From: Actinoallomurus bryophytorum
GTDB lineage: Bacteria > Actinomycetota > Actinomycetes > Streptosporangiales > Streptosporangiaceae
Length of the DNA: 64,000 bases
Assembly (NCBI RefSeq): GCF_006716425.1
Contig: NZ_VFOZ01000001.1
Span: forward strand, 4,154,001-4,218,000
Direction of reading: 5' to 3'
The notes under the pieces are model-generated. The model searched no databases. It was not told where the DNA came from and saw only the letters and a list, made by a program, of their open reading frames with translations. This document shows positions 20,883 to 55,881 of the stretch, piece after piece; positions within the stretch are counted from its first letter, which is position 1; every line of letters begins with the position of its first letter. The position numbers and the translations under genes were made by a program.

Positions 20883-20909
20883 GTCAGGGCCGGGACGAGA
20901 CCCGGTTCC
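20883..20909. repeat. 27-bp direct repeat, copy 2 (3' end of GntR gene)
   Basis: Partner of 20457-20483, three mismatches. Encodes the last residues (RVSSRP and stop) of the GntR regulator, so the other copy looks like a duplicated gene tail. Confidence 0.8.
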
Positions 20910-21639
20910 GCCTCGGGATCTCCAGAGCGCTGTGCAACTGGTAGCGGTCCGCCCGGTACGTGGACACCGCGAGCTCGACGCAGGTGCCGTTCATGAACGA
21001 CCGTCGCTGCAGCAGGAGCACGGCGCTGCCGCGGGCCAGGTCGAGCAGGCGTGCGTCGGCCACGTCGGCGATGCCGGCCTCGATGGTCTGCTCGCCGGCG
21101 TCGAAGATGATCCCGAAGCGCGTCTCCAGCACGTCGTACAGCGACGCGTCACTGAGCGGGCTGTCCGGCAGGCCCGGGGCGACGGTCACCGGGATGTGGG
21201 AGCGCTCGACGGCCATGGGCTCGCCGTCGGCGGTGCGCAGGCGTTCGATCACGTGCACCCCGGTGCCCGGCGGGACGTCGAAGATCCGGGCGAGGTGGGC
21301 GTTGGCCGGCGTGGTGCGGCGGTCGAGGTCGCGAGCGCCGGGCTCGAGGCCACGGGCGCGCATGTCCTCGGTGAACGAGACGAGGCGCAGCGGCATCTCG
21401 ATCTTGGGTCGGGCCACGAAGGTGCCCTTGCCCGGCACGCGGTACAGCCGGCCCTCGGTGACCAGATGATCGACGGCCTGCCGAACCGTCATCCGCGACA
21501 GCCCGAACCGCTGGCACAGCTCCCGCTCGGACGGGATCGGAGCGTCGACCGGTAGTTCGGCGTCCTCGATCAGGTCGAGGAGGATCTCCCGGAGCTGGAA
21601 GTACTTGGGCACGGGGCTGGTCGGATCGATCTTGCCCAT
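20884..21639 (-). CDS. GntR/HutC regulator, DasR-like
   Basis: 251 residues. N-terminal winged helix ('PKYFQLREILLDLIEDAELP', 'RFGLSRMTVRQAVDHLVTEG') and a C-terminal UTRA effector domain (about 85-245). Sequence, neighbours and the TGGTCTAG-type operator match DasR, the GlcNAc-6-phosphate/GlcN-6-phosphate-responsive repressor of aminosugar use in streptomycetes. It is divergent from the deaminase-HPr-enzyme I operon, and the shared palindrome implies it regulates both that operon and itself (inference). Its effector here is not known. Final codons lie in a duplicated 27-bp sequence. Confidence 0.85.
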   Translation of the reverse strand: MGKIDPTSPVPKYFQLREILLDLIEDAELPVDAPIPSERELCQRFGLSRMTVRQAVDHLVTEGRLYRVPGKGTFVARPKIEMPLRLVSFTEDMRARGLEPGARDLDRRTTPANAHLARIFDVPPGTGVHVIERLRTADGEPMAVERSHIPVTVAPGLPDSPLSDASLYDVLETRFGIIFDAGEQTIEAGIADVADARLLDLARGSAVLLLQRRSFMNGTCVELAVSTYRADRYQLHSALEIPRRNRVSSRP

Positions 21640-21685
21640 TGGGTACCTCTGGCAGCAGAGTCGGGGAGTGAAGTATGGTTCATAC

Positions 21686-21707
21686 TGGTCTAGTCCGGAC
21701 TAGACCA
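21686..21707. promoter_or_regulatory. dre-like GntR operator, 22-bp perfect palindrome
   Basis: TGGTCTAGTCC is followed immediately by its exact reverse complement. DasR sites are TGG-N6-CCA (TGGTCTAGACCA); here two such near-sites (TGGTCTAGTCCG and CGGACTAGACCA) sit back to back. A second inverted repeat, GTATG-GTT-CATAC, abuts it at 21673-21685. Location midway between the GntR gene and the deaminase operon supports control of both promoters. Confidence 0.75.
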
Positions 21708-21838
21708 CACGTCCAGTTAGCGTGTCAATGCAGGTCAGGGCTACGAAGGCGTAACGACGCGATCACAGTCTGCCCGGTGACCGCAAGCAGGCACGGCCCG
21801 GACGGACAAGCCGTACGGCACACGGCGAAGGAGATCCC

Positions 21839-22882
21839 ATGACCACCCGGATGCGTACTGAGATCGGTGAGCAGGGCACCGCGCTGCGCGAGACCCTCGA
21901 CGCGCTGTTGCCCCGCGTGGCCGAGGTGGGCATCCTGGGCCGCGAGACCCGGCAGGTGCTGTTCATCGCGCGCGGTTCCTCGGACAACGCGGCCGTCTAC
22001 GGCAGCTATCTGATCCAGACCCAGGCCGGGCGGCTGGCCACCCTCGCCTCGCCGTCGATCGCGACCACGTACAAGAAGAAGATCGACCTCTCCGGCGTGC
22101 TCGCCGTGGCGATCAGCCAGTCGGGCAAGACCGAGGAGATCGTCGAGACGCTCGACTGGGCCGCCGACTGCGGCGCGCGTACGGTCGCGGTCACCAACGG
22201 CGAGGGTTCGCCGCTGGCCGAGGCCGCCCAGCTGGCCCTGGTCACCCGGGCTGGCGACGAACTGGCCGTGCCCGCGACCAAGACCTACACCACGCAGCTC
22301 GCGGCGCTGGCCGTCCTCGGCATCGGCCTGGGCGCCGAGGTCGACATCGCCGACCTGCGCCGGGCGCCCGACGAGGTCGACCGGCTGATCGCGGCGACCG
22401 AGGCCGCGGACGCGCTGCCCGAGATCGTGGAGGAGCTCGCGGGTGTGCCCGGCGCGGTCGTGTCCGGACGCGGCATGGCCTACGGCACCGCGCTGGAGTT
22501 CGCGATCAAGCTGAAGGAGGCGTGCTACCTGCACGCCATGGGCCTGTCGTACGCGGACCTGCTGCACGGGCCGATCGCGGTCGTGGACGACGACACCCCC
22601 GCGATCGTCGTGGCGGCCGACTCCGGCCCGACGCTGCCCGCCGCGGTCGCGCTGGCCGAGCGGGTCACGGCGGCGGGCGCGAAGGCGTACGGCATCGGCG
22701 GCGGCCGTATGCTGGCCGGTGCGTCCACGCGTGCGCTCCCCGGTCCGGACCTGCCGGAGTGGGTCGCACCACTTGCCTTGATCGTGCCCGGTCAGCTGAT
22801 CACCGAACGGCTGGCCCGCAGGCTCGGGATCGATCCCGACATGCCGCGCGGCCTCGGCAAGGTGACGCAGACCGATTCGTAA
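21839..22882 (+). CDS. SIS-domain aminosugar-phosphate deaminase/isomerase (NagB-II type)
   Basis: 347 residues with two SIS domains and no glutaminase domain, so it is not GlmS. Diagnostic blocks are 'FIARGSSDNAAVYGSYLIQT', 'AISQSGKTEEIVETLD', 'VPATKTYTTQLAALAVLGIG', and 'EFAIKLKEACYLHAMG' followed by 'DLLHGPIAVV'. This is the pattern of NagB-II/AgaS-like enzymes that convert glucosamine-6-phosphate to fructose-6-phosphate plus ammonia. First gene after the dre-like operator; HPr starts 14 bases downstream. Exact substrate is inferred from family and context. Confidence 0.85.
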   Translation: MTTRMRTEIGEQGTALRETLDALLPRVAEVGILGRETRQVLFIARGSSDNAAVYGSYLIQTQAGRLATLASPSIATTYKKKIDLSGVLAVAISQSGKTEEIVETLDWAADCGARTVAVTNGEGSPLAEAAQLALVTRAGDELAVPATKTYTTQLAALAVLGIGLGAEVDIADLRRAPDEVDRLIAATEAADALPEIVEELAGVPGAVVSGRGMAYGTALEFAIKLKEACYLHAMGLSYADLLHGPIAVVDDDTPAIVVAADSGPTLPAAVALAERVTAAGAKAYGIGGGRMLAGASTRALPGPDLPEWVAPLALIVPGQLITERLARRLGIDPDMPRGLGKVTQTDS

Positions 22883-22896
22883 TGGGGGAGTTCGCA

Positions 22897-23160
22897 ATGG
22901 CCGAGCGCCGTGTCACGGTCCAATCCGAGGCGGGGCTGCACGCCCGTCCCGCCGCTCTGTTCGTCCAGGCCGCCACGAAGGCGCCGATGGACGTCGCCGT
23001 CGGCCGGCCGGACGCCGATCCGGTCAACGCCAAGAGCATCCTGTCCGTGATCGGGCTCGACGTGCGCCACGGCGAGGAGATCGTGATCATCGCCGAGGGA
23101 GACGGGGCGGACTCCGCCCTCGACGAGCTCGCCGCGACGGTGACCGCGAGCGGTGCCTGA
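22897..23160 (+). CDS. ptsH: Phosphocarrier protein HPr
   Basis: 87 residues, ATG preceded at six bases by GGGGGAG. Phosphorylatable His15 in 'EAGLHARPAALFVQAA' and Ser47 in 'NAKSILSVIGLD', the site used by HPr kinase in Firmicutes. Accepts phosphate from enzyme I and passes it to EIIA proteins. Its final codons overlap the enzyme I start by eight bases. Confidence 0.95.
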   Translation: MAERRVTVQSEAGLHARPAALFVQAATKAPMDVAVGRPDADPVNAKSILSVIGLDVRHGEEIVIIAEGDGADSALDELAATVTASGA

Positions 23161-24820
23161 CCGCCTGAGTGGTCTCGGCGTCAGCCCCGGCATCGGAGCC
23201 GGACCGGTACGCGTGATCGCGGGCGCCGTGCCCGAGCCACCTGCGGGCGAGCGTCACCCCGGCGACGCCGCCGCCGAGACCGGGCGCGCGCTCGGCGCCC
23301 TCGAAACGGTCGCCGCCGACCTGGAAGAACGCGGCACGAAGGCCGGTGGCGAGGCACAGGACGTGCTGACCGCCCAGGCCATGATGGCCCGGGACCCGGG
23401 CCTGGCCGAGCTCGCCGGACAGAAGATCGCCGGCGGCTCCTCGGCGCCGCGTGCGGTGCACGAGGCGTTCGGGGTGTTCCGCGAGATGCTGGCCGGCGCC
23501 GGCGACTACCTCGCCGCACGCGTCGCCGACCTGGACGACATCCGCGACCGGGCGATCGCCGTCCTCCTGGGCGTGCCGATGCCGGGCATCCCCGCTTCCG
23601 ACCAGCCGTTCGTGCTGGTCGCACGCGACCTGGCCCCGGCCGACACGGCCCTGCTGGACCCCGCGAAGGTCGTCGGCTTCGTCACCGAAGAGGGCGGCCC
23701 GACCAGCCACACCGCGATCCTGGCCCGCTCGATGGGCGTACCCGCGGTCGTCGCCTGCCCCGGCTGTACGGCGCTGGCCGAGGGCACCGTCGTGCTGGTC
23801 GACGGCGTCTCCGGAGAGGTACGCCCCGGCCCGTCCGCCGACGAGGTGGAGCGGGCACGCTCGGCCGCGGCGGCGCGTACCGCCGCCCTCACCGTCACCG
23901 GACCGGGCACGACCGCGGACGGTCACGCGGTGCCCCTGCTGGCCAACGTGGGCGGCCCACAGGACGTGCCCGCCGCGCTGGAGTACGGAGCCGAGGGCGT
24001 CGGCCTGTTCCGCACCGAGTTCCTGTTCCTGGACCGTACGACGCCGCCGGGGGAGGAGGAGCAGGAGGCCGCCTACCGTGCCGTGCTGGAGGCGTTTCCG
24101 TACGTCGTCGTACGGACCCTCGACGCCGGCGCGGACAAGCCCCTCGCCTTCCTGCCCGCCGTCGCGGACGAGCCCAACCCCGCCCTCGGCGAACGCGGCC
24201 TCCGGATGCTGCGGCGCCATCCCGAGGTGATCGAGGGTCAGCTGCGCGCCCTCGCCAGGGCGGCCGAGGCACTCCCGGTGGAGTTGCTCGTCATGGCGCC
24301 GATGGTGGCCGACGCCGCGGAGGCCCGTGACTTCGCCGGGCTGTGCCATGCGGCCGGCATCGGGCGGGCCGGCGTCATGATCGAGATCCCCTCGGCCGCG
24401 CTGCGGGCCCGTGACCTGGCCGCCGAGGCCGACTTCTTCAGCATCGGCACCAACGACCTCGCCCAGTACGCCTTCGCGGCCGACCGGCAGGTGGGCGCGC
24501 TGAGCCGGTTGCAGGATCCGTGGCAGCCCGCGCTACTCGACCTGGTCGCGCTGGCCGCCAGGGGCGCGGGTGGCAAGGCCTGCGGAGTGTGCGGTGAGGC
24601 GGCCGGTGACCCGGCGCTGGCCTGCGTGCTGACCGGGCTGGGCGTCACGTCGCTGTCGATGAGCCCGCCCGCCCTTCCGGCCGTACGCGCCGCGCTCGCC
24701 GCCCATACGACCGAGCAGTGCCGCCGGGCCGCGGCCGCCGCCCGCGCGGCACGTGACGCCGCCACCGCGCGCAGGGACGCACGTGCCGAGCTTCCCGGGC
24801 TGGCCGCCCTCGGCCTGTAG
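23153..24820 (+). CDS. ptsI: PTS phosphoenolpyruvate-protein phosphotransferase (enzyme I)
   Basis: 555 residues from GTG 23153. N-terminal HPr-binding and phosphohistidine domains with active His186 in 'EEGGPTSHTAILARSMGVPA', then the PEP-binding barrel with 'GVGLFRTEFLFLDR', 'FSIGTNDLAQYAFAADR' and the catalytic Cys in 'GKACGVCGEAAGD'. Transfers phosphate from PEP to HPr. No sugar-specific EII gene occurs in the window, so the EII partners must be elsewhere. The C-terminus is Ala/Arg-rich and slightly extended. Confidence 0.95.
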   Translation: MPDRLSGLGVSPGIGAGPVRVIAGAVPEPPAGERHPGDAAAETGRALGALETVAADLEERGTKAGGEAQDVLTAQAMMARDPGLAELAGQKIAGGSSAPRAVHEAFGVFREMLAGAGDYLAARVADLDDIRDRAIAVLLGVPMPGIPASDQPFVLVARDLAPADTALLDPAKVVGFVTEEGGPTSHTAILARSMGVPAVVACPGCTALAEGTVVLVDGVSGEVRPGPSADEVERARSAAAARTAALTVTGPGTTADGHAVPLLANVGGPQDVPAALEYGAEGVGLFRTEFLFLDRTTPPGEEEQEAAYRAVLEAFPYVVVRTLDAGADKPLAFLPAVADEPNPALGERGLRMLRRHPEVIEGQLRALARAAEALPVELLVMAPMVADAAEARDFAGLCHAAGIGRAGVMIEIPSAALRARDLAAEADFFSIGTNDLAQYAFAADRQVGALSRLQDPWQPALLDLVALAARGAGGKACGVCGEAAGDPALACVLTGLGVTSLSMSPPALPAVRAALAAHTTEQCRRAAAAARAARDAATARRDARAELPGLAALGL

Positions 24821-24903
24821 TGCGCCTTACCGGCGCCATCACACGGCAGTAAGGGCTGGTGAGCAGGGCAGGTTTGCTCTCCACCCGTGGAGTAACTAGC
24901 GTC

Positions 24904-26181
24904 GTGCGCGTGCGACGGACGCCCGGCTGGAAGCTCGTGACCGCTCTCGCTGCCGCTGCGATGGCCGCTTCGGCCTGCCACGAACCCGGGGCGAGCTCGG
25001 CCACCAGCCCCTCTTCGCCGTCCTCGTCGAAGCCCGCGTCCCCGACGCCGACACCGACACCGACACCGACGGAGGTCGCGCTCGTCAAGAAGATGAGCAC
25101 GGCCGAAAAGGTCGGCCAGCTGTTCATGCCGACCATCCCCGGCTCGACCCCGTCGGCCGGGGCCGCCCTCGTCAAGCGCTACCACCTCGGCGGCGTCATC
25201 TACTTCCCGCTCAACCTGCACACCCCGCGGCAGACCGCGGAGCTGTCCAACGGACTGCAGAAGGCCGCGCTGAAGAACGGCGGCGTACCGCTGGTCATCA
25301 GCACCGACGAGGAGCAGGGGCCCGTCTCACGGCTTCCCTACGTCACCCGCTTCCCGTCCAACAAGCTGCTTGCCTCGACCAAGGACCCCGACGAGGACAC
25401 CCGCCTGGCGGCGAAGGTCACCGGCGAGGAGCTCATGGCGGTCGGCATCAACCAGGACAACGCGCCCGACGCCGACGTGAACATCAACCCGCACAACCCG
25501 GTGATCGGTGTGCGGTCCTTCGGCGCGAACCCGAGCAAGGTCGCCCACCTCGACGGCGTGGCGATCGACGCCTACCGCGCCACCGGCGTCGCGGTCGTGG
25601 CCAAGCACTTTCCCGGCCACGGCGACACCGCCACCGACAGCCACACCGGCCTGCCGATCATCAACCACACCAAGGCCCAGTGGGAGCGCATCGACGCGCC
25701 GCCGTTCAAGGCCGCGATCGACCACCACGCCGATGTCATCATGACCGCGCACATCGTCGTCCCCGGCCTGGAAAAGTCCCGGCTCCCGGCGACGATGTCC
25801 AAGACGGTGCTGACCGGACTGCTCCGCGGCAAGCTCGGCTACCAAGGCGTGATCATCACCGACTCCCTCCAGATGACCGGGGCGACGATCAAGTTCGGCC
25901 CGGAGGAGGCGGCGGTACGCGCGGTCGTGGCCGGCGCCGACATGCTGCTCATGCCGCGCAGCCTCGGACGCGCCTACAACGCGGTCCTCGCCGCGGTGAA
26001 GTCCGGCCGGATCTCGCGCAGCCGCCTCGACGACGCCGTGACCAGGATCATCCGGATGAAGAACGAGCGCGGGATGTTCCACCCGTACGTCAGCGTGGCC
26101 AAGGCTGGCCGCGTCATCGGCTCGAAGGCGCATCGGGCGGCGGCGCGCAAGGTCGCCGCCGACGTACGTGCCGGCGCTTGA
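24904..26181 (+). CDS. NagZ-type GH3 beta-N-acetylglucosaminidase lipoprotein
   Basis: 425 residues from GTG 24904, which gives a normal lipoprotein signal ('RVRRTPGWKLVTALAAAAMA') ending in a lipobox-like 'ASAC' at residue 25; a GTG at 24859 is possible. A Ser/Pro/Thr linker (PTPTPTPTPT) leads to a GH3 barrel. The His-Asp dyad motif 'KHFPGHGDTATDSHTG' and the nucleophile Asp in 'IITDSLQMTGA' are intact. NagZ enzymes release GlcNAc from GlcNAc-MurNAc fragments; here the enzyme is predicted on the outer face of the membrane rather than cytoplasmic. Confidence 0.88.
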   Translation: MRVRRTPGWKLVTALAAAAMAASACHEPGASSATSPSSPSSSKPASPTPTPTPTPTEVALVKKMSTAEKVGQLFMPTIPGSTPSAGAALVKRYHLGGVIYFPLNLHTPRQTAELSNGLQKAALKNGGVPLVISTDEEQGPVSRLPYVTRFPSNKLLASTKDPDEDTRLAAKVTGEELMAVGINQDNAPDADVNINPHNPVIGVRSFGANPSKVAHLDGVAIDAYRATGVAVVAKHFPGHGDTATDSHTGLPIINHTKAQWERIDAPPFKAAIDHHADVIMTAHIVVPGLEKSRLPATMSKTVLTGLLRGKLGYQGVIITDSLQMTGATIKFGPEEAAVRAVVAGADMLLMPRSLGRAYNAVLAAVKSGRISRSRLDDAVTRIIRMKNERGMFHPYVSVAKAGRVIGSKAHRAAARKVAADVRAGA

Positions 26182-26289
26182 TGTCCGCTGTCGGCCGTTG
26201 ACGCCGAGACCTGAGCGTGACTAAGTTTCAGGAGCTGGCCAGGGCCAGTCATTTTCTTTCGCGCATCTCGGGGGCGGAAGGAGTTATCG

Positions 26290-28104
26290 ATGTCCCGTCG
26301 CCGACGGTTCATTGCGGTAGGTACGGCGTCACTCGTGGCCATGGCCGGTCTGGGAGCAGGCACCGCGAACGCCGCCAAGGCCGGGCACCAGCCCGGCAAG
26401 GACAGAGGAGTCCTGAAGATCCTCAACAGGATGACGCTCGAGGAGAAGGTCGCCCAGCTGTTCGTGCTGCAGGTCTACGGCACGAGCGCGGACACGACCG
26501 ATCCCACGGCCGTCGCCGCCAACCAGAAACTGTGGGGCGTCGACAACGCCCAGCAGCTGATCGCCAAGTACCACCCCGGCGGGATCATCTACTACTACGT
26601 CGACCCGCCCAACCTCGTCAGTCCCCAGCAGGTCGCCCACCTGTCCAACGGGATCCAGCAGGCGGCCATGCACACGCGGGTGCCGATCCCGGCGACCATC
26701 ACCACGGACCAGGAGCAGGGCTCCATCGTCACGCGGGTCCCGGCGCCGTTCACGCAGTTCCCGGGCGCCCAGGCGCTCGGCGCGGCGCGCTCACCGCAGG
26801 ACGCGTACACCACGTCGAAGATCACCGGCGAAGAGCTCAAGGCGATCGGGATCACTCAGGACTACGCTCCCGACTCCGACGTGAACGTCAACCCGGCCAA
26901 CCCGGTGATCGGCGTCCGTTCTCCGGGGTCCGACCCGTCGCTGGTGGCCCAGATCGCGCCCGCCGAGGTCGACGGCTACCAGGCCGCGGGCATCATCGCC
27001 ACGGCCAAGCACTTCCCGGGTCACGGTGACACCGACACCGACAGCCACACCGGTGTGCCGATCATCAACCACACCAAGGAGCAGTGGGAGCAGATCGACG
27101 AGCCGCCGTTCAAGGCGGACATCGCGCACGGCGTCGACTCGATCATGACGGCGCACATCATCGTTCCGGCGCTGGACCCCTCCGGTGACCCGGCGACGCT
27201 CTCCAAGCCGATCCTCACCGGCATTCTCCGCGACCAGCTGCACTACAAGGGCGTCATCGTCACCGATGCCCTCGGCATGGCGGGACTCCGCGCCAAGTAC
27301 GGCGACGACCGGATCCCCGTGCTGGCGGTCAAGGCCGGCGTGGACCAGCTGGAAAAGCCTCCGGCGGACGACAGCGGCAAGGGCCTGTACGGCCTCCAGC
27401 GCGACTCTCTGGTCAACGCGGTCAAGAGCGGCGAGATCAGCGAGTCGCGCATCGACCAGTCCGTGTACCGGATTCTCAAGCAGAAGCTCGACCACGGTCT
27501 GTTCAAGCACCCTTACGTCGACGAGAGCAAGGTCGCGTCCCGCGTGGGCACGCCCGCGCACCTGGCGGCGGAGCAACGCATCACCGACAAGACGACCACG
27601 CTGGTCAAGAACGACGCCCTGCCGCTGAAGAAGGCCGGCCAGAAGGTCTTCGTCACCGGCTACGGCGTCACGACCACCCAGACGCTCGCCAATGACATCG
27701 CCAAGCGCGGGGCGGTCACCTCGGTGCTGCAGACGGGCACCACCCCGTCGCAGGCGACGATCGACCAGTCGGTGGCCCAGGCCGCGAACAACGACGTCAC
27801 CGTGGTCACCACCAATGCCGCGTGGAACAGCACGGCACAGCAGAACCTCGTCAAGGCGCTGGTGGCCACGGGCAAGCCGGTGATCGTGGCGTCGGTGCGC
27901 GACGCGTACGACATCGGATACTTCCCCGACGTCAAGAACTACCTGGTGACGTACGGCTACACGCCCGCGTCGCTGGAGTCGCTCACCAAGGTGCTGTTCG
28001 GTGAGATCAGTCCGAAGGGCAAGCTGCCGGTCATGATCCCGGTGGCCGGCCATCCCGACCAGACGCTCTATCCGTACGGCTACGGCCTGAGCTTCGGCAA
28101 GTGA
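26290..28104 (+). CDS. Secreted NagZ-type GH3 glycosidase with C-terminal domain
   Basis: 604 residues, ATG preceded by GGAAGGAG. Signal peptide with 'RRRR' and 'TANAAKAG' cleavage region, without a lipobox. The GH3 barrel repeats the motifs of the upstream paralogue ('KHFPGHGDTDTDSHTG', nucleophile Asp in 'VTDALGMAGL'), and an additional GH3 C-terminal alpha/beta domain (about 430-604) is present. The two genes therefore form a lipoprotein plus free-secreted pair of probable beta-N-acetylglucosaminidases acting on peptidoglycan or chitin fragments. A TGG-N6-CCA sequence (26236-26247) before the gene is a weak dre-like match. Confidence 0.88.
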   Translation: MSRRRRFIAVGTASLVAMAGLGAGTANAAKAGHQPGKDRGVLKILNRMTLEEKVAQLFVLQVYGTSADTTDPTAVAANQKLWGVDNAQQLIAKYHPGGIIYYYVDPPNLVSPQQVAHLSNGIQQAAMHTRVPIPATITTDQEQGSIVTRVPAPFTQFPGAQALGAARSPQDAYTTSKITGEELKAIGITQDYAPDSDVNVNPANPVIGVRSPGSDPSLVAQIAPAEVDGYQAAGIIATAKHFPGHGDTDTDSHTGVPIINHTKEQWEQIDEPPFKADIAHGVDSIMTAHIIVPALDPSGDPATLSKPILTGILRDQLHYKGVIVTDALGMAGLRAKYGDDRIPVLAVKAGVDQLEKPPADDSGKGLYGLQRDSLVNAVKSGEISESRIDQSVYRILKQKLDHGLFKHPYVDESKVASRVGTPAHLAAEQRITDKTTTLVKNDALPLKKAGQKVFVTGYGVTTTQTLANDIAKRGAVTSVLQTGTTPSQATIDQSVAQAANNDVTVVTTNAAWNSTAQQNLVKALVATGKPVIVASVRDAYDIGYFPDVKNYLVTYGYTPASLESLTKVLFGEISPKGKLPVMIPVAGHPDQTLYPYGYGLSFGK

Positions 28105-28110
28105 TCGAAC

Positions 28111-28147
28111 GGGTGCGGGACGACGGTGAGCCCGCCGTTCCGCACCC
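28111..28147. terminator. Bidirectional hairpin between convergent genes
   Basis: 16-base arms (28111-28126 and 28132-28147) with two non-Watson-Crick positions and a TGAGC loop, between the second GH3 gene and the convergent kinase gene. Confidence 0.75.
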
Positions 28148-28151
28148 GGCC

Positions 28152-29204
28152 CTAGCGTTCGAGCCGGTGTACGGCCAGGCGCGCGGCTCCGAGGGCTCCG
28201 TCGCCCGCGAGTACGGGGTCGACGCCGAACCTCGCGGACAGGCCGGCGCGTACGCCGTCGGCCACCGGCCCGCTCTCCAGCAGGGATCCGGCGACCACCA
28301 GGCCATGCTCGTCCCGTCCGCCGAGCAGGCCGTTCAGCGCGGGGCGTACGGCGTCGGCGTCCTCCAGGAGGTGCCGGACCGCCCTCTCGATGATCTCGAG
28401 GGCGACCGGGTCGCCCGCCTCGGCGGCCGCGCTCACGAGCGGGGCCACCCCGCCGATCGAGGCGGGCTGCCCGGCGTAGACCTTCTTGATGATCGCCTGG
28501 GGCAGGTCGGTCCCGGACCACGTGAGGCCCGCGGTCGGTGCCCCGCTCGCCATGGCGATGCCCGGGTCCAGCTCCGCCAGGAGCGGCCCGGAGGCCTCCC
28601 CCAGCAGGGCCCGCGGCACGGTCCCGGCGAGGAGCGTCGCACGGCCACGGCCGTCGTAGGCGCGCATCACGGCGCGTACGGCCTCGCGCCCGATCCACAC
28701 CGCGGATCCCTCGTCGCCGATCAGATAGCCGTTGGCGTCGGCGCGGCGCTCGATCTCGCCGGCGTTGACGACGGCCGCGCCCGCTCCGGTTCCGGCGAAG
28801 ACCACGAGGCCGACCGGCTCCGTGCTGCCGGCGGCGTACGCGACCGGGATGTCGGTGATCACCTCGGGCTCGCCCGTGATGCCCGCGGCCTCCCAGGCGG
28901 CGTTGGCGGAGGCGACCGCGCGTGGCCGGTTGGCGGCGCCCGCACCGGCGATGCCGAAGACGCCCCCGGCGACGAGTGCCGGATCGAGGTCCTTGATCGC
29001 CGTGGTGAGGGCCGTGGTCAGCGCGCTGGTCAGCTCGGTGGCGCTGCCGCCGCCGGAGTTCGGGTTGGCGCCGGGTCCGACGCCGTAGCCCGCGACCGTG
29101 CCGTCGAGCGTGATGATCGCGGCCCGCGTCCGGGTGCCACCGGCGTCGACGCCGACCACGTAGGGACCGATCGGGTTAGAGCACACATAGTGACCGTAGA
29201 ACAT
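28152..29204 (-). CDS. BadF/BadG-type aminosugar kinase (GlcNAc/MurNAc kinase candidate)
   Basis: 350 residues of the ASKHA fold. Phosphate-1 loop 'VVGVDAGGTRTRAAIITLDG', 'FGIAGAGAANRPRAV', adenosine-loop 'VVFAGTGAGAAVVNAG', and 'YLIGDEGSAVWIGREAV' match the N-acetylglucosamine kinase branch of BcrA/BadF/BadG proteins, which includes the Clostridium MurK-type kinase acting on both MurNAc and GlcNAc. Adjacent murQ favours MurNAc as a substrate (inference). Start at ATG 29204; a GTG six codons on is possible. Divergent from rpiR across only 42 bases. Confidence 0.82.
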   Translation of the reverse strand: MFYGHYVCSNPIGPYVVGVDAGGTRTRAAIITLDGTVAGYGVGPGANPNSGGGSATELTSALTTALTTAIKDLDPALVAGGVFGIAGAGAANRPRAVASANAAWEAAGITGEPEVITDIPVAYAAGSTEPVGLVVFAGTGAGAAVVNAGEIERRADANGYLIGDEGSAVWIGREAVRAVMRAYDGRGRATLLAGTVPRALLGEASGPLLAELDPGIAMASGAPTAGLTWSGTDLPQAIIKKVYAGQPASIGGVAPLVSAAAEAGDPVALEIIERAVRHLLEDADAVRPALNGLLGGRDEHGLVVAGSLLESGPVADGVRAGLSARFGVDPVLAGDGALGAARLAVHRLER

Positions 29205-29224
29205 TGCCCGTTGACATCACATTG

Positions 29225-29242
29225 TTTTCGTAAGAAACTTTC
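29225..29242. promoter_or_regulatory. Candidate RpiR operator in the kinase/rpiR gap
   Basis: TTTC-GTAA-GAAA inverted repeat followed by CTTTC, in a gap of just 42 bp between the two divergent starts. AT-rich against a GC-rich background. RpiR proteins often bind TTTC/GAAA-type palindromes, so autoregulation and control of the kinase are plausible; unproven. Confidence 0.4.
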
Positions 29243-29246
29243 CGCC

Positions 29247-30176
29247 ATGAGGAAGGTCGGGCCCGAATCCGGGCTGGGGGCCGACGCCGCAGGCGCATCT
29301 CCGCTCAGCACAGTCGTACGCGTCCGTTCGTTGCTGCCATCGCTGCCACCCGCGGAAGCGCGGGTCGCACAGCGGGTCATCGACAGTCCGGAGGCGGTCG
29401 CCAACTCCACGATCACCGAGCTCGCACAGGCGTGCGGCACATCAGAGACCACGGTCATCCGGTTCTGCCGGGCGATCGGCTTCTCCGGCTATCCGGAGCT
29501 CCGGCTGACGCTGGCCACCGAGGCAGGGCGGGCACAGGGAGTGACCGGCGGCCGGGACGTCGGCAGCGACATCAGCACGGACGATACGCTGGAACAGGTC
29601 GTCGAGAAGATTGCCTTTGCCGATGCCCGCGCGGTCGAGGAGACCGCCAACCAGCTCGACATCCAGGTGCTCGACCAAGTGGTCACGGCGATCGCGGCGG
29701 CCCGCCGGGTCGACATCTACGGCGTGGGCGCCAGCGCCTTCGTGGCCTCGGACTTCCAGCAGAAGATGCACCGGATCGGCCGGACCTCCTACGCGTGGTC
29801 CGACGCTCACATCATGCTCACCAGCGCAGCGGTCCTCGGACCGAACGACGTCGCCGTCGGGATCTCCCACACGGGGTCGACGGTGGAGACGATCGATGCC
29901 CTCAGCGTGGCCAAGCGCCGCGGTGCCACGACGGTGGCGCTCACCAACTTCCCTCGCTCTCCGATCGCCGACGCCGCCGATCTCGTACTCACGACGGCGG
30001 CGAGGGAGACGACGTTCCGATCCGGAGCGACGGCGAGCCGGCTGGCCCAGCTCACCGTGATCGACTGCGTGTTCGTCGGCATCGCGCAGCGTACGACCGG
30101 GACCCGTGAGCATCTGGAGGCGACACTCGAGGCGGTCACGGTCCGCCGAGTGCGTCCCGAGCGGAGGCGCAGGTGA
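29247..30176 (+). CDS. MurR/RpiR family transcriptional regulator
   Basis: 309 residues. N-terminal RpiR helix-turn-helix ('LPPAEARVAQRVIDSPEAVA', 'ELAQACGTSETTVIRFCRAI') and C-terminal SIS domain (about 150-290) with 'VDIYGVGASAFVASDFQQKM' and 'AVGISHTGSTVETIDALSVA'. SIS domains in this family bind phosphosugars; next to murQ the likely ligand is MurNAc-6-phosphate or GlcNAc-6-phosphate. Overlaps murQ by GTGA, so regulator and enzyme are co-translated. Confidence 0.88.
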   Translation: MRKVGPESGLGADAAGASPLSTVVRVRSLLPSLPPAEARVAQRVIDSPEAVANSTITELAQACGTSETTVIRFCRAIGFSGYPELRLTLATEAGRAQGVTGGRDVGSDISTDDTLEQVVEKIAFADARAVEETANQLDIQVLDQVVTAIAAARRVDIYGVGASAFVASDFQQKMHRIGRTSYAWSDAHIMLTSAAVLGPNDVAVGISHTGSTVETIDALSVAKRRGATTVALTNFPRSPIADAADLVLTTAARETTFRSGATASRLAQLTVIDCVFVGIAQRTTGTREHLEATLEAVTVRRVRPERRRR

Positions 30177-31096
30177 ACGACAGCATGCCCCTGGCGGTGC
30201 TGAAGGGCGTACCCACCGAGGTACGCAATCCACGCACCACCGAGATCGACGTGCTGCCCACATTGGAGATACTGCGGCTCATCAATGCCGAGGACACGCT
30301 GGTGCCCGCCGCGGTCGCGGAGGCGTTGCCCCAGGTCGCCAAGGCGGTCGACCTCGAGGTCGAGGCGCTCCGTGCCGGCGGCCGGGTGCACTACTTCGGC
30401 GCGGGCACCTCGGGACGGCTCGCCGTCCTGGACGCCGCGGAGCTTCCGCCGACCTTCGGCATCGATCCCAGCCTGGTGGTCGCCCACCACGCGGGCGGCT
30501 TCGGCGCGATCTCCCAGGCGATCGAGAACGTCGAGGACGACGCCGCGCTCGGCGCCAGCGACGCGGGTGACGTGAACGAAGGCGACGTCGCCGTCGGCAT
30601 CACCGCGAGCGGGCGCACGCCGTACGTCGTGGGGGCGCTGCGCGCGGCCGCGGAGGCCGGCGCGCACACCGTGCTGATCAGCTCCAACCCGGCCGCCGCG
30701 GCCGGTACGGAGGTCGAGGTTCACATCGCGGTGGACACCGGACCGGAGGCCGTGTCGGGTTCGACGCGGATGAAGGCCGGCACCGCGGCCAAGCTCGTGC
30801 TCAACGCGATGTCCACGACGGCGATGGTGCGGCTCGGCCGCACCTACTCCAACCTCATGGTCAGCATGAGCGCGCTCAACTCCAAGCTCCGCGGCCGCCT
30901 CGTCAAGATCCTGGTCGAGGCGACCGGTATGGACGCGGAGACGTGCGAGACCGCCCTGGCCGACGCGGCAGGCGACACGCGCACCGCCCTTGTCTCCCTG
31001 TTGTGCGACGTCTCACCGGGTCGCGCCGCCGAAGCCCTCGCCGGCTCCGGTGGCTCCGTCCGTGAGGCGATGAGCACGATCCACGGAGATGCCTGA
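30173..31096 (+). CDS. murQ: N-acetylmuramic acid 6-phosphate etherase
   Basis: 307 residues from GTG 30173, overlapping the rpiR stop and preceded by GGAGG. SIS-fold lyase that removes D-lactate from MurNAc-6-phosphate to give GlcNAc-6-phosphate. Conserved blocks: 'LPTLEILRLINAEDTLVPAA', 'GRVHYFGAGTSGRLAVLDAA', 'ITASGRTPYVVGALRAA', and 'VSGSTRMKAGTAAKLVLNAM'. With the divergent kinase it forms a complete two-step MurNAc-to-GlcNAc-6-phosphate route. The following deacetylase (NagA) is not in the window. Confidence 0.95.
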   Translation: MNDSMPLAVLKGVPTEVRNPRTTEIDVLPTLEILRLINAEDTLVPAAVAEALPQVAKAVDLEVEALRAGGRVHYFGAGTSGRLAVLDAAELPPTFGIDPSLVVAHHAGGFGAISQAIENVEDDAALGASDAGDVNEGDVAVGITASGRTPYVVGALRAAAEAGAHTVLISSNPAAAAGTEVEVHIAVDTGPEAVSGSTRMKAGTAAKLVLNAMSTTAMVRLGRTYSNLMVSMSALNSKLRGRLVKILVEATGMDAETCETALADAAGDTRTALVSLLCDVSPGRAAEALAGSGGSVREAMSTIHGDA

Positions 31097-31129
31097 TACC
31101 CGGGGGTAAGAGAAAGGGTCCACCTTCAT

Positions 31130-32398
31130 ATGCGTAAGTTCTGCACGGTCATAGCGGCGCTCAGCGTCGTGATCGCCGCTCCGGCATGTGCCCCGAGTAC
31201 CAAGAGCAGCGGCGGCGACAAGGTCACCCTCACCGTGCTCTCCTGGCGTCCCGAGGACACGGCGGGCTATGCGAAGATCTTCGCCCCGTTCGAGAAGAGT
31301 CACCCGAAGATCAAGGTCAAGTTCAAGCCGATCAAGAACACCGAATACCTCACGGTGTTGCCGACCGAGCTGCAGAAGTCCCAGGGCGGCCCGGACATCG
31401 TGCAGCTGAAGCCCTACGGGCCGATCCAGTCGCTCATCACGGGTGGCAACCTCACCCCGCTCGACGGCCAGGTCGACGTGGGCAACTGGGACCCGAACGT
31501 CCTCCAGGCGGCCAGGGGCAAGCAGGACGGCAAGCTGTACGGCGTCCCGTACGCCCTGCAGACGCTCCAGGTGCTCTACAACAAGAAGATCTTCGCCGAG
31601 CAGCAGATCCAGCCGCCGTCCACCTGGGCGGACTTCATCGCCGCGTGCGACAAGCTCAAGAAGGCCGGCATCACGCCACTGTCGACGAGCGGCCTCCAGC
31701 CGTGGGTGCTCGCCATCGACCACCAGATCTTCGGCGCCACGCGCTACGGCGGCGACGACTTCGCCAAGGCCGCCGTCGCCGGCACGAAGAACTTCACCGA
31801 CCCGGACTACACCGCCTCGCTCGACGTCACGGCGAAGCTCAAGCCGTACTACCCGGACAAGGTCGCCGCGGTCGACTACCCGGACGCGCAGACGCTGTTC
31901 ACCAGCGGCAAGGCCGCGATGTACCCCGGCGGGTCGTACGAGGTCGGGCCGTTCACCCAGACCAACCCCGACCTGCAGATCGGCTTCTTCGACGCGCCTC
32001 CCGCGCCCGGCGCCAAGGTCGACCACGCGCTGACCTCGGGCTACGTCGACGGCTCGTACGGCGTGAACGCGCACTCGCAGCACAAGGCGGAGGCGATCGA
32101 GCTGGCCAAGTGGATGGCGACGCCGGAGTTCGGCCGGCTGTACGCGAGCACGCTCAAGCAGATCTCCGCGGTGCCCGGAGTCACGCCCGGCGACCCGCTG
32201 CTGGCCCAGTCGCTGCAGAACTACAAGACCCACGGCGCGACGTACATGATGGTCGTCGACTTCGGCTACGGGAACCCGCTCGGCCGTGACCAGGAGGGCG
32301 GCGCCCTGCAGAAGATGCTGGGCGGCACGTCGGCCGCGGACGCGGGCAAGTTCGTTCAGAAGGGCGTTTCGGCGTGGTTCAAGCCGAGCGGCGGCTGA
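31130..32398 (+). CDS. ABC sugar-binding lipoprotein (CUT1)
   Basis: 422 residues. Signal peptide with lipobox-like 'AAPAC' (Cys near residue 24), then a type 1 extracellular solute-binding fold ('VTLTVLSWRPEDTAGYAKIF', 'GPDIVQLKPYGPIQSL', 'YALQTLQVLYNKKIFAE', 'AMYPGGSYEVGPF'). Binds an external sugar or oligosaccharide and delivers it to the two permeases that follow. Position 33 bases after murQ suggests MurNAc, GlcNAc-MurNAc or GlcNAc as ligand; this is inference. Confidence 0.9.
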   Translation: MRKFCTVIAALSVVIAAPACAPSTKSSGGDKVTLTVLSWRPEDTAGYAKIFAPFEKSHPKIKVKFKPIKNTEYLTVLPTELQKSQGGPDIVQLKPYGPIQSLITGGNLTPLDGQVDVGNWDPNVLQAARGKQDGKLYGVPYALQTLQVLYNKKIFAEQQIQPPSTWADFIAACDKLKKAGITPLSTSGLQPWVLAIDHQIFGATRYGGDDFAKAAVAGTKNFTDPDYTASLDVTAKLKPYYPDKVAAVDYPDAQTLFTSGKAAMYPGGSYEVGPFTQTNPDLQIGFFDAPPAPGAKVDHALTSGYVDGSYGVNAHSQHKAEAIELAKWMATPEFGRLYASTLKQISAVPGVTPGDPLLAQSLQNYKTHGATYMMVVDFGYGNPLGRDQEGGALQKMLGGTSAADAGKFVQKGVSAWFKPSGG

Positions 32399-33342
32399 AG
32401 GCGGGGCCGACCGGACCCGGTGGCGGGGCGACCCGCCGCCGGGCACGGCGATTCGTCCTGCTGCTGACGTTCCTCCTGCCGGCGCTCGTGCTGTACACCG
32501 TCTTCATCATCTATCCGCTGATCTCGGCGCTGCAGTACAGCCTCTTCTCGTGGAACGGCCTTCAGCAGGGTGGCTTCGCCGGAGTCTCGAACTTCGTGGA
32601 TCTGTTCACGAAGTATCCGCTCAGCGAGCAGGTGCCGCGCGCGCTGCTGCACAACTGCATCTTCTTCGTCGGCACGATGCTGATCCAGACCACGGCCGGG
32701 CTGCTGCTCGCGGTGCTGCTGCACCGGTCACGGCGCGGCAAGAGGTTCCTGCAGACCTCCTACATCCTGCCGCACCTGGTCAGCCCGATCGTCGCCGGCT
32801 ATCTGTGGTCGATGATGCTCAACCCGCAGTTCGGCGCGGTGAACGCCGCCCTCAAGGGCATCGGCCTCGGGTCGCTCGCCCAGCCGTGGCGCGGCGACCC
32901 GCACCTGGCACTTCCGGTGGCGATCCTGGTGAACGCCTGGCAGTGGGTCGGCTTCCCGATGCTGCTGTTCGCGGCCGCCCTGGCCGGCATCCCGGAGGAA
33001 TACCACGAGGCGGCGCGCGTCGATGGCGCGTCGGCGTGGACGAGCTTCCGCCGGGTCACGTTCCCGCTGCTCACGCCCGTGCTCGGCATCGTCACCGTGC
33101 TGACCTTCATCGGCAACTTCAACATCCTCGACCTGATCTACGCGTTGCAGGGATCCAAGGGCAACCCGTCGTTCTCCACGGACGTGCTGGGCCTGCTCTT
33201 CTACCGGACCGCCTTCGAAAGCCCTGACGCGAACGCGATCGGCCAGTCCTCGGCGCTCGCCGTCCTCATGTTCGTACTGATCTTCGGGGTGTCCATCGTC
33301 GCGAACCGCTTCTTCCGCAGGATGGAGGCACGCCTGAAATGA
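32374..33342 (+). CDS. ABC sugar permease, MalF/UgpA type
   Basis: 322 residues from GTG 32374, which overlaps the binding-protein gene by 25 bases; no better in-frame start follows before the first helix. Six predicted membrane helices and the EAA loop 'EEYHEAARVDGASAWTSFRR' typical of CUT1 permeases. Forms the channel with the next gene product. Stop overlaps the next start (ATGA). Confidence 0.9.
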   Translation: MVQAERRLKAGPTGPGGGATRRRARRFVLLLTFLLPALVLYTVFIIYPLISALQYSLFSWNGLQQGGFAGVSNFVDLFTKYPLSEQVPRALLHNCIFFVGTMLIQTTAGLLLAVLLHRSRRGKRFLQTSYILPHLVSPIVAGYLWSMMLNPQFGAVNAALKGIGLGSLAQPWRGDPHLALPVAILVNAWQWVGFPMLLFAAALAGIPEEYHEAARVDGASAWTSFRRVTFPLLTPVLGIVTVLTFIGNFNILDLIYALQGSKGNPSFSTDVLGLLFYRTAFESPDANAIGQSSALAVLMFVLIFGVSIVANRFFRRMEARLK

Positions 33343-34217
33343 GCACCTCCGTGCTGGAGAAGCCCCAGGTGATGGCCCCGCAACGCCGTCCGCGGCGGCG
33401 CCGGCCGCGTACCGCGGTGATCGCCTCGACAGCCCTCCTGTGGGTGTACGCCGCGGCGGCCCTGGCCCCGTTGATCATCATGGCGCTCGGCTCGCTGCGC
33501 ACCGAGCAGCAGCTCGCGGACCAGCCGATCGGGTTCCCGCTGCATCCGGCCTTCGAGAACTACGCGAAGGCCTGGTCCGAGGGCGGCTTCAGCGCCTACT
33601 TCATCAACTCCATCGTGGTGACCGTCTCCTCGGTGGTGCTGGGCACGGGCGTCGCGGTGCTCGCGGCGTACCCGCTGGCACGGTTCCGCTTTCCTCTGAG
33701 CGGCCTGCTGAGCGCCTACTTCCTCGCCGGCCTGATGTTGCCGATCCGCCTGGGTATCAAGCCGGTGTTCTTCCTGCTCAACTCGATCGGCCTGATCGAC
33801 TCCCGGATCGGCCTGATCTGCGTGTACGCGGCGAGCGGCGTGCCGTTCGGCGTCTTCGTCCTGTCCGCGTTCTTCCGCGCGCTGCCGAACGAGCTGGAGG
33901 AGGCCGCCCGCATCGACGGGGCCGGTGAGCTGCGCATCTTCGGTCAGATCATGGTGCCGCTGGTCCGCCCGGCCCTGACGACGGTGGCGCTGTTCCAGTT
34001 CATCCCGCTGTGGAACGACTTCTTCTTCCCGTTGGTGCTGGTCGAGGACGACAAGTACACCTTGCCCGTCGGCCTGACCCGGTTCGTCGCGGAGTTCGAG
34101 GCGGCCCACGCCCAGCTGTACGCGGGCCTGGTCATCACCACGATCCCGCTCGTCCTGCTGTTCCTGCTCGCGACCAAGCAGATCGTGGCCGGCCTGACCG
34201 CCGGCATGACCAAGTGA
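33339..34217 (+). CDS. ABC sugar permease, MalG/UgpE type
   Basis: 292 residues, ATG overlapping the previous stop. Six helices; EAA loop 'NELEEAARIDGAGELRIFGQ'. No ATP-binding gene follows: as in many actinomycete CUT1 importers the ATPase is probably a shared MsiK-type protein encoded elsewhere (established pattern, not shown here). Confidence 0.9.
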   Translation: MSTSVLEKPQVMAPQRRPRRRRPRTAVIASTALLWVYAAAALAPLIIMALGSLRTEQQLADQPIGFPLHPAFENYAKAWSEGGFSAYFINSIVVTVSSVVLGTGVAVLAAYPLARFRFPLSGLLSAYFLAGLMLPIRLGIKPVFFLLNSIGLIDSRIGLICVYAASGVPFGVFVLSAFFRALPNELEEAARIDGAGELRIFGQIMVPLVRPALTTVALFQFIPLWNDFFFPLVLVEDDKYTLPVGLTRFVAEFEAAHAQLYAGLVITTIPLVLLFLLATKQIVAGLTAGMTK

Positions 34218-39564: not shown

Positions 39565-40314
39565 TCAGCCGGAGAGCCCGGACGCGTCGATGATGGCGCG
39601 GATGCGGCCCGGTGTGGTCACCGAGCGGGTGGTCTCCGGGGGGTAGAGAGCGCCGCCCATGTAGATGCCCGCGGGCTGGAAGCGGGATTTCGACCGCACC
39701 GCCTCGCTCGCGGTGAAGTGGAGCTCCCGCGCGCCGGTCTGCTCGGCCACGCGTGCGGCCGTGCGCTCGTTGATGCCGCCCGCCGGCATCACGATGATCC
39801 GGCCTGCGGCCTTGTCCACCAGGCGGGCGATCAGGTCGGCGCCCTCCAGCGCGCTCGGGGCAGCCCCCGAGGTGAGCAGCCGGTCCACGCCCAGGGCGAT
39901 GACGTCCTCGAACGCCGCCTCCGGGTCGCGGGCCACGTCGAACGCTCGATGGAACGTCACGCTCAACGGGCGGGCCGCCACGACGAGCCGGCCGCACAGT
40001 TCGGTGTCGATCTCCGCGTCCGGGGTCAGCGCGCCGATGACCACCCCGTCGGCGCCCGCCATCTTCGCCGTCTCGATGTCGCGCAGCATCACCTCGGCCT
40101 CGGACGGGCTGTAGATGAAGTCCCCGCCACGCGGACGGATGATCACATGGACCTTGATCCGGCCGGCGGCGACGGCGACGGCCTGCTCGATCATTCCGTG
40201 GCTGGGGGTGATCCCGCCCTCGAACAGGGCGGCGCAGAGCTCGACCCGGTCGGCACCGGCCTCCGCCGCGGCGGCGACGTCGTCGGCGGACTCCAGGCAG
40301 ATCTCGTAACGCAT
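39565..40314 (-). CDS. cutC: CutC family protein
   Basis: 249 residues from ATG 40314, with GAGAGG upstream; a GTG at 40341 would add nine residues. TIM-barrel protein with 'MRYEICLESADDVAAAAEAG', 'HVIIRPRGGDFIYSPSEAEV', 'VIGALTPDAEID' and 'VTFHRAFDVARDPEAAFEDV'. Named for copper homeostasis, but evidence for copper binding is weak and the true activity is unknown. Twenty-four bases downstream of the M81 peptidase gene, so in the same operon. Its stop abuts the truncated DUF5010 gene. Confidence 0.88.
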   Translation of the reverse strand: MRYEICLESADDVAAAAEAGADRVELCAALFEGGITPSHGMIEQAVAVAAGRIKVHVIIRPRGGDFIYSPSEAEVMLRDIETAKMAGADGVVIGALTPDAEIDTELCGRLVVAARPLSVTFHRAFDVARDPEAAFEDVIALGVDRLLTSGAAPSALEGADLIARLVDKAAGRIIVMPAGGINERTAARVAEQTGARELHFTASEAVRSKSRFQPAGIYMGGALYPPETTRSVTTPGRIRAIIDASGLSG

Positions 40315-40337
40315 GGGTTCCTCTCGGATGGGGGCAC

Positions 40338-42910: not shown

Positions 42911-42972
42911 GGTGGCTCCTTCACTGCGGCGATCCGTGGTTGCGGCGGCAACCCTAGCGATCAAGCTTGGTC

Positions 42973-43011
42973 GAACGAAGTTTAAGGACTTACTTCGAGA
43001 ACGAAGGTTAA
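42973..43011. promoter_or_regulatory. Direct repeats, candidate ROK operator
   Basis: GAACGAAGTTTAA at 42973 and GAACGAAGGTTAA at 42999 differ at one base and are 26 bp apart, in the 303-bp divergent promoter region between ROK and the peptide-binding protein. GAAGT and ACTTC between them also form an inverted repeat. Confidence 0.45.
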
Positions 43012-43213
43012 TCCCAGAACTTGGCTGGACGATAGCAAGCCATGGCAACCTCGTCCACCGTCCATCCGCGTAACACGGCCGTAATCAGCCGGTTCGTCGC
43101 GCACAAGGTCAGGCACTTAATTCGGTTGCGCCTTGTCTTCATTCGATATGGGCATGTATCGTCGCCGCCAGCATTCCGCCGAAAACGATGGACGTCCCCC
43201 ACATGGAGCACCG

Positions 43214-45016: not shown

Positions 45017-45026
45017 TAACCGACGT

Positions 45027-45055
45027 GCCCGGGACGGCGACCTGCCGTCCCGGGC
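45027..45055 (+). terminator. Intra-operon hairpin after the binding-protein gene
   Basis: GCCCGGGACGGC / GCCGTCCCGGGC, perfect 12-bp stem, five-base loop, eleven bases after the stop and 28 bases before the permease start. Likely partial terminator or 3' mRNA stabiliser. Confidence 0.7.
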
Positions 45056-45083
45056 CTCCACCCCCCTGGTCGGAGGCATCCCG

Positions 45084-46037: not shown

Positions 46038-46096
46038 GCGAGCGAACCAAGAACACAGCGTCTATGGTCACTCCTCCGACGAAGGAGGGCTCATGA
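46034..46096 (+). CDS. 20-codon linking reading frame between the two permeases
   Basis: ATG at 46034 overlaps the upstream permease stop (ATGA) and its own TGA at 46094 overlaps the next permease ATG (ATGA). The peptide MSERTKNTASMVTPPTKEGS has no recognised family. GAAGGAGG for the downstream gene lies inside it. The double four-base overlap suggests translational coupling across the gap rather than a functional peptide; expression is unproven. Confidence 0.4.
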   Translation: MSERTKNTASMVTPPTKEGS

Positions 46097-46989: not shown

Positions 46990-46993
46990 CCCG

Positions 46994-49324: not shown

Positions 49325-49357
49325 TGCGCGCATTCCGTACCGCGTACTGGCACACTC

Positions 49358-49873: not shown

Positions 49874-49946
49874 GCGTTCCCGGCGTCTCGTCCAGGCGGA
49901 CGGCGGAATTCCCGTACGCCCCCGGCCCTCTCCCTGCGAAGCCCCT

Positions 49947-49966: not shown

Positions 49967-50001
49967 GGCTATTGTCACCCTTGCAAACAAGGGGTGCGGT
50001 A

Positions 50002-53515: not shown

Positions 53516-53528
53516 GCCTCGCGTGACA

Positions 53529-55869: not shown

Positions 55870-55881
55870 TCGCGGAAACCA

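Follow-up and report, generated by a model that had tools for sequence, protein, structure and literature searches.

A conserved gene island of Actinoallomurus bryophytorum as a probable salvage locus for N-acetylmuramic acid, with an ABC importer and a kinase in place of MurP

Contig NZ_VFOZ01000001.1 of Actinoallomurus bryophytorum, whose genome (G000) comprises 9.47 Mb on three contigs, was analysed over a window of 64,000 nt, to which all coordinates refer unless a contig (C1, C2) is named. Positions 20884-34217 are occupied by an island of twelve genes that probably serves the salvage of amino sugars from peptidoglycan. All twelve are intact open reading frames, and each matches its family in profile and Pfam searches; every gene named in an earlier, sequence-only reading of this DNA was recovered as an intact frame within the island. 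The genes fall into two regulatory blocks, each with its own regulator. In block A, a DasR-like regulator on the minus strand is followed on the plus strand by a deaminase candidate with an SIS domain, the phosphotransferase system (PTS) proteins HPr and enzyme I (EI), and two glycoside hydrolases of family 3 (GH3). Block B consists of a BadF-family kinase on the minus strand, divergent from plus-strand genes for an RpiR-type regulator, MurQ, a sugar-binding protein and two permeases. Overlaps between the genes for HPr and EI, for RpiR and MurQ, and for the binding protein and the permeases suggest transcription units. The dN/dS ratios of the island genes, measured against the related loci L093 and L094, range from 0.07 to 0.42.

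The N-acetylmuramic acid (MurNAc) 6-phosphate etherase MurQ (30173-31096, plus strand) narrowly clears the equivalog cut-off of TIGR00274 (303.1 versus 302 bits) and is the single match in the host genome at E-values up to 1e-20. It lies beside an RpiR/MurR-type regulator (29247-30176, plus strand; PF01418 and PF01380, HTH_6 and SIS), as in the E. coli-type MurNAc divergon. Across a gap of 42 bp (29205-29246), the regulator faces the BadF-family sugar kinase (28152-29204, minus strand; PF01869, BcrAD_BadFG), which we propose to be a 6-kinase for MurNAc, or for both MurNAc and N-acetylglucosamine (GlcNAc). The sequence-only reading had listed this kinase in one block with RpiR and MurQ; its strand is the minus one, divergent from RpiR. 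Its nearest solved relative, PDB 8zo3, is titled MurNAc/GlcNAc kinase, the activity given for MurK of Clostridium acetobutylicum (Reith 2011, as cited in PMC5790795), and only residues 15-196 align well with it. In alignments read by eye, the catalytic position of the kinase is occupied by T117-D118 (T-D or D-D in relatives, but S-D in that from Terrabacter), and GYLIGDEGS is preceded by D156-A157-N158, for which most relatives read D-G-Y. No bulky Glu or His was seen in the alignment at the position that gives room to the lactyl group, so MurNAc binding is permitted, not proven. Downstream of MurQ follow a CUT1-type sugar-binding protein, probably a lipoprotein (31130-32398, plus strand; PF01547), and two plus-strand permeases of an ATP-binding cassette (ABC) transporter, assigned by family match: one like MalF/UgpA (32374-33342) and one like UgpE/MalG (33339-34217).

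Block A begins with the DasR/NagR-like GntR-UTRA repressor (20884-21639, minus strand; PF00392 and PF07702), which among solved structures comes closest to YvoA/NagR (E=2.6e-55) and DasR (E=2.2e-49). The SIS-domain protein (21839-22882, plus strand; SIS is its sole Pfam match) is a probable glucosamine-6-phosphate deaminase of the NagB-II-like kind, with 7kqa and 3fj1, then the glucosamine-6-phosphate deaminase 8eol, and GlmS as its nearest solved relatives. NagS, a GlcNAc-6-phosphate dehydratase placed near MurQ in PMC12680351, was considered as its identity and rejected, since the protein matches GlmS and NagB-II instead. HPr (22897-23160, plus strand) and EI (23153-24820, plus strand) exceed the cut-offs of TIGR01003 (82.2 versus 47.9 bits) and TIGR01417 (388 versus 341.7 bits). 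The first GH3 protein (26181 at its end, with a start at either 24859 or 24961, plus strand; PF00933) has the N-terminal catalytic domain only; its nearest solved relative is the GH3 beta-N-acetylglucosaminidase 6k5j (E=3.7e-82). The second (26290-28104, plus strand; PF00933 and PF01915) has two domains and resembles YbbD (NagZ) of Bacillus subtilis (3bmx, E=2.5e-88 over query residues 42-601). They carry the motifs KHFPGHGDTATDSH and KHFPGHGDTDTDSH, respectively, both of which fit KH(F/I)PGxGxxxxD(S/T)H, which we take to be the catalytic motif of NagZ and GH3 beta-N-acetylglucosaminidases. A lipoprotein signal in the first and a secretion signal in the second, both read by eye, make it probable that the two enzymes are secreted.

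The island is real and conserved. MurQ is 90% identical in Actinoallomurus iriomotensis, 93% in an Actinoallomurus metagenome-assembled genome and 91% in Actinomadura sp. DC4, which are three of the five named loci from our MurQ scan, and the two Actinoallomurus records and Actinomadura sp. DC4 keep the gene order of the island where their stretches cover it: the stretch of L092 misses both island ends, and that of L094 stops short of dasR and differs by an additional small called gene, which separates EI from GH3. The kinase adjoins the RpiR-MurQ pair, at most 1.5 kb from MurQ, in all 30 of the closest loci, our own included. A wider sample of 44 MurQ regions (39 chosen for spread and the five named ones), whose counts are not population frequencies, has RpiR near MurQ (within -1.5 to +4.8 kb) in 38, the kinase within 6 kb in 28, GH3 in 19 and NamZ, presumably the product of ybbC, in 7; the kinase was counted by tblastn at 50 bits or more, which misses weak relatives such as that of Terrabacter (L096, 35% by blastp). 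The binding protein and both permeases directly follow MurQ in 14 of the 44 regions, four of which belong to this genus or its nearest (L052, L092-L094). A second class of MurQ, 48-54% identical, occurs in other genera and in other surroundings (L084-L090); in L087 and L088, NamZ is divergent from MurQ.

The two blocks are headed by different predicted operators. Between dasR and the deaminase candidate, block A has a dre-like double palindrome, TGGTCTAGTCCGGACTAGACCA (21686-21707), a predicted site of the DasR-regulon type. The element is also found in L053, L093 and L094, the L092 contig begins inside it and retains the second half, and L056 and L060 have changed forms; the other eight loci compared contain no match, and their gene content excludes the dasR-adjacent gap. 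Exact matches to the dre 11-mer number 10 in the genome versus 12 for a reversed control, so the 11-mer alone is not enriched and only palindromic pairs are telling. Such pairs lie before a phosphofructokinase gene (one) and a glyceraldehyde-3-phosphate dehydrogenase gene (two), at C1 179712 and 7471437-7471474 (L040, L044), and two further single matches are on C2; the DasR regulon may thus reach into glycolysis here. Control of block B by dre was considered and rejected: no half-site with 0 or 1 mismatch lies near 29205-29246, and a half-site with two mismatches lies at 29173-29183, inside the kinase gene; half-sites with up to two mismatches number 91 in the window versus 48.5 expected.

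The start of block B shows a TTGAC-AAGAAANTTTC arrangement, and a predicted RpiR operator, AAGAAACTTTC, lies immediately before the RpiR start at 29232-29242, the only operator match with 0-1 mismatches in the window. The palindrome GAAANTTTC is present in 42 of 55 distinct RpiR upstream regions versus 0.04 expected from mononucleotide shuffles, in sequences that are related rather than independent; the 55 exclude loci that have under 330 bp of upstream sequence, that lack a match to RpiR or whose upstream end duplicates another. The palindrome is missing from 13 regions, Planotetraspora and Terrabacter among them, and is also present in genera whose RpiR is 65-70% identical. We infer that RpiR binds the GAAANTTTC operator.

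The best explanation of the island, and one that we hold to be probable, is a salvage locus for MurNAc and peptidoglycan amino sugars that works by ABC import, a kinase and MurQ, with putative substrates. As their family suggests, the secreted GH3 enzymes would trim GlcNAc from wall fragments. The binding protein and the two permeases, with energy from an ATPase whose gene lies outside the island, would then import MurNAc or a small MurNAc-containing sugar, a role suggested by the conservation of the operon, and the BadF kinase, judged from its relatives and its synteny, would make MurNAc-6-phosphate. MurQ, by its over-cut-off family assignment, would convert this to GlcNAc-6-phosphate and lactate; an off-island NagA would deacetylate GlcNAc-6-phosphate, and the SIS enzyme would deaminate glucosamine-6-phosphate to fructose-6-phosphate. 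RpiR is predicted to control block B via the GAAANTTTC operator and DasR to control block A via dre. HPr and EI would be remnants of a GlcNAc-type PTS, whose enzymes IIA and IIB (EIIA, EIIB) are kept at this place in several relatives, and would stand outside MurNAc uptake.

How does such a locus compare with the systems already described? In E. coli, MurNAc is taken up by MurP, the textbook phosphotransferase route. The island would be a variant of the known MurNAc pathway with an ABC importer and a kinase in place of MurP, a substitution that the sequence-only reading had put forward and that fits the conserved gene content. With the B. subtilis mur cluster (murQ, murR, murP, amiE, nagZ and ybbC; PMC5061867), it shares a secreted NagZ-type GH3, MurQ, an RpiR/MurR regulator and the logic that leads from fragments to GlcNAc-6-phosphate, but it has a CUT1 ABC unit and a BadF kinase instead of the MurP PTS and is without NamZ, found in 7 of the 44 related MurQ regions, or an amidase gene. 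The B. subtilis cluster is also resembled by Planotetraspora and Terrabacter, where the MurQ-importer unit adjoins GH3, the exo-muramidase NamZ and a beta-lactamase-like serine hydrolase. In the murT-murK-murQ operon of Tannerella forsythia, MurT is a symporter or carrier of the major facilitator superfamily type (PMC5790795, PMC10465942). Like this operon, the island would pair uptake independent of the PTS with a kinase and MurQ, but its importer is of the ABC type, and the place of S133-P134-L135, which in Tannerella MurK gives room to the lactyl group (T94 matters too; PMC10465942), is taken by D-A-N in our alignment reading, so the specificity is putative.

Streptomyces coelicolor is described in PMC5061867 as recycling MurNAc with SCO4307 (MurQ) and the MurR-like SCO4308 and without MurP; its DasR targets include dasR, nagB, ptsH and crr-ptsI (PMC4398421). 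MurQ with a MurR-like regulator and without MurP is common to both organisms. In A. bryophytorum, however, a single island unites the genes for the regulator, deaminase, HPr, EI and MurQ and adds an importer and a kinase to them, and the genome lacks a glucose-family EIIA. The Streptomyces NgcEFG-MsiK system is likewise a CUT1 importer without an ATPase of its own. Its binding protein NgcE in S. coelicolor binds MurNAc with a dissociation constant of 25 uM, though serving chitobiose uptake (PMC6167110), but the island binding protein scores only 74.2 bits against the NgcE model TIGR03851 (cut-off 399.65), its best named model, and its nearest solved relatives are assorted sugar-binding proteins. 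A literature search limited to open-licence papers, and hence weak, yielded no description of an ABC-type MurNAc importer.

Several findings weigh against a MurNAc salvage locus. The GH3 pair scores 170.5 and 147.9 bits on the NagZ model NF003740 (PRK05337; cut-off 207 bits), and the kinase is far under the cut-off of the NagK model NF046058 (74 of 370 bits). The SIS-domain protein of the sequence-only reading is present, but on the NagB-II model NF046059 it reaches only 186.3 of 430 bits, so it may be said to work like NagB-II rather than to be NagB-II. The CUT1 importer of that reading is likewise there as a binding protein and two permeases, but the island has no ATPase gene for it; the genome was not searched for one such as MsiK. 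The substrates of the kinase, the SIS enzyme and the binding protein are, moreover, ones that we infer. NagA is also absent from the island. The NagA model TIGR00221 has one over-cut-off match in the host genome, at C1:5270078, adjoining an SIS protein, a ROK kinase and a GatY-like aldolase in what, judged by eye, looks like a galactosamine-type locus, and a second, below the cut-off, at C2:342588, adjoining a NagB-like gene that is also below its cut-off. NagA is thus encoded off-island, with these two matches as candidates. In G157, G094, G180 and G096, the NagA gene precedes the SIS gene; nagB exceeds the TIGR00502 cut-off in none of nine genomes tested, five of which have matches below it.

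Synteny adds to this side of the balance. No kinase is called in the Planotetraspora stretch, and the importer is absent from g12 and g19, the nearest outside genera with linked blocks. Genes for a HAD hydrolase, DUF6912 and an aldehyde dehydrogenase, which closely follow MurQ in relatives from g12, g19, g29 and g39, are separated from the importer by about 14 kb in this window, so a long stretch was inserted or moved and the importer is either a retained ancestral part or an insertion; in G195, HAD and DUF6912 come after the importer with one other called gene between. In the window itself, the HAD hydrolase, DUF6912 and the aldehyde dehydrogenase lie with a second HAD protein and an AMP-ligase at 48680-59396. 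The string before them (39565-48625), made up of CutC, an M81/MlrC metallopeptidase, a ROK regulator, a family-5 binding protein and an oligopeptide-type ABC ATPase, is a possible second uptake system, for peptides.

The importer also occurs apart from MurQ. Of 200 genomes, 30 encode an orthologue of the binding protein at E-values up to 1e-60, and in 13 of these it lies beside MurQ. In 17 loci from 16 of the 17 other genomes (two loci from G183; G198 left out), no called MurQ adjoins the importer. The ligand of the importer therefore need not be MurNAc, which weakens the MurNAc assignment as a general rule. RpiR is present in nine of the 17 loci (six times after the permeases, three times before the binding protein) and a BadF kinase lies downstream in seven; 13 have one or the other, and neither is called in L118, L121, L124 and L126. 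This frequent company fits an amino-sugar or sugar-acid ligand. After the permeases, six of eight importer loci of genus g7 have a protein of 248-253 residues, whose L127 member, the sole one scanned, is SIS_2. In L127, L128, L129, L131, L132 and L135, the importer relatives are followed by this protein and a BadF kinase, and several of these loci add a protein of 342-365 residues, of which the L127 copy, again the sole one scanned, has no Pfam match. Loci of the L127 type may encode a sister pathway that handles a different amino sugar or sugar acid.

The alternative that survives best, though we consider it unlikely, is an island for GlcNAc or chito-oligosaccharides: the importer would take GlcNAc or chitobiose, the BadF protein would be a GlcNAc kinase, and MurQ would only recycle the cell's own MurNAc-6-phosphate made by AnmK. 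AnmK, which is over the cut-off in five of ten genomes tested, is encoded off-island in the host genome (C2:733598) and is a second possible source of MurNAc-6-phosphate, which counts for this alternative and against MurNAc salvage from outside. The dre before block A points the same way, as do the NgcE model as the best, if distant, named match of the binding protein, the lack of any over-cut-off NgcE in the host genome, and the naming of the kinase relative 8zo3 for both sugars; GH3 enzymes could also act on chitobiose. Against it stand the 14 importer-bearing MurQ regions, in which the importer directly follows MurQ with RpiR near. Moreover, G195, G157 and G096 have no AnmK match and G180 a weak one below the cut-off, yet in all four the kinase is close to MurQ. 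In these genomes, the kinase is the candidate source of MurNAc-6-phosphate among the sources tested, as the MurNAc salvage reading would have it.

What, then, is the place of HPr and EI? The sequence-only reading had drawn a single system, in which external GH3 hydrolysis, uptake, kinase, MurQ and deaminase were joined by the PTS proteins. The former steps fit the conserved island; that the PTS parts work as one system with the ABC importer and the kinase is not supported. PTS_EIIA_1 (PF00358) has no match in the host genome or its sister G195, where EIIB and other EIIA and enzyme IIC (EIIC) families were not searched genome-wide; among the seven genomes searched, it is also absent from G157, G068 and G061 and present once each in G096 and G180. 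The host genome yields a single PTS_EIIC (PF02378) match, a mannitol permease encoded together with an EIIB, EIIA, HPr and EI of its own, and accordingly no MurP permease of the E. coli divergon type. The HPr-EI pair of the island is thus the second in the genome and has no glucose-family EIIA to go with it, and the island as a working GlcNAc PTS, which combines glucose-family EIIA and EIIC with HPr and EI, was rejected for want of PTS_EIIA_1 and a fitting EIIC in the genome. The gap between the SIS and HPr genes, seen wholly or partly in the stretches of eight relatives (L053-L057, L059-L061), holds a PTS_EIIA_1-type gene in six and EIIB in four, mostly accompanied by a HAD protein; none is present in L053 and L056. 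Each of the seven genomes has the importer but no EIIA (two), EIIA but no importer (two) or neither of them (three: G157, G068, G061), so an exchange of PTS for ABC transport is only suggestive. The PTS half is a relic, or it serves something else.

One such service, to which we give a rather low probability, would be a regulatory phosphorelay or the phosphorylation of the mannitol system, by which the orphan HPr and EI would link the amino-sugar state to other metabolism. His15 of HPr, within the motif LHARP, is in place and the TSHTAI motif of EI is intact, with histidines that we take to be the active residues, and dN/dS (0.09-0.22 for HPr, 0.18 for EI) gives no sign of decay. The lack of PTS_EIIA_1 and the dre palindromes before the phosphofructokinase and glyceraldehyde-3-phosphate dehydrogenase genes also agree with a working pair, but no target was identified, and the mannitol locus carries an HPr and an EI of its own.

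To judge whether the two blocks belong together, the positions of MurQ and EI were compared in 70 out of 200 genomes from the order; in four of these, SIS stood in for EI. The two genes lie at most 20 kb apart in 29 (two by SIS: G094, G058), distant on the same contig in nine and on different contigs in 25, for which contig ends were unchecked; in the remaining seven they are on different contigs with MurQ near a contig end on the side where block A is expected. The 37 genomes with a MurQ identity of at least 66% comprise the 29 linked cases, the seven contig-end cases and one unlinked genome (G099). Different predicted operators, and the 34 genomes out of 70 whose blocks are distant or split between contigs, would suit two unrelated neighbouring loci, one for DasR/PTS amino-sugar use and one for MurQ, without joint function, but this is most doubtful, as all but one of the 34 have a MurQ of at most 65% identity and the linkage in 29 of the 37 closest genomes extends over seven genera (g1, g12, g19, g29, g38, g39 and g44, the last from another family) despite inversions (G197, G144) and gains and losses of genes between the blocks. 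Gene order across relatives, a check that the sequence-only reading had suggested, is thus favourable in the recurrence of the island, in this linkage and in the 14 of 44 MurQ-importer units, and the island also differs from its single-system view in that each block has a regulator and a predicted operator of its own, dre ahead of block A and GAAANTTTC ahead of block B.

Finally, we would like to place the island in the context of MurNAc transport. For mycobacteria, a 2026 preprint speaks of uptake by 'an unknown transporter' and reports no MurP homologues in the species tested (PMC13041923). We tentatively suggest, at somewhat less than an even chance, that the RpiR-MurQ-importer unit and the BadF kinase are the missing PTS-free actinobacterial MurNAc route under a MurR-like repressor, which would have been joined to the DasR block in the Actinoallomurus lineage after the loss of a GlcNAc-type PTS, with HPr and EI left to another, perhaps regulatory job. 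The island is useful because its conserved MurQ-importer unit and divergent kinase offer named candidate genes for MurNAc import in actinobacteria that lack MurP, which makes the question of MurNAc transport directly testable. It may also show how a PTS route and an ABC-kinase route replace each other at one chromosomal place.

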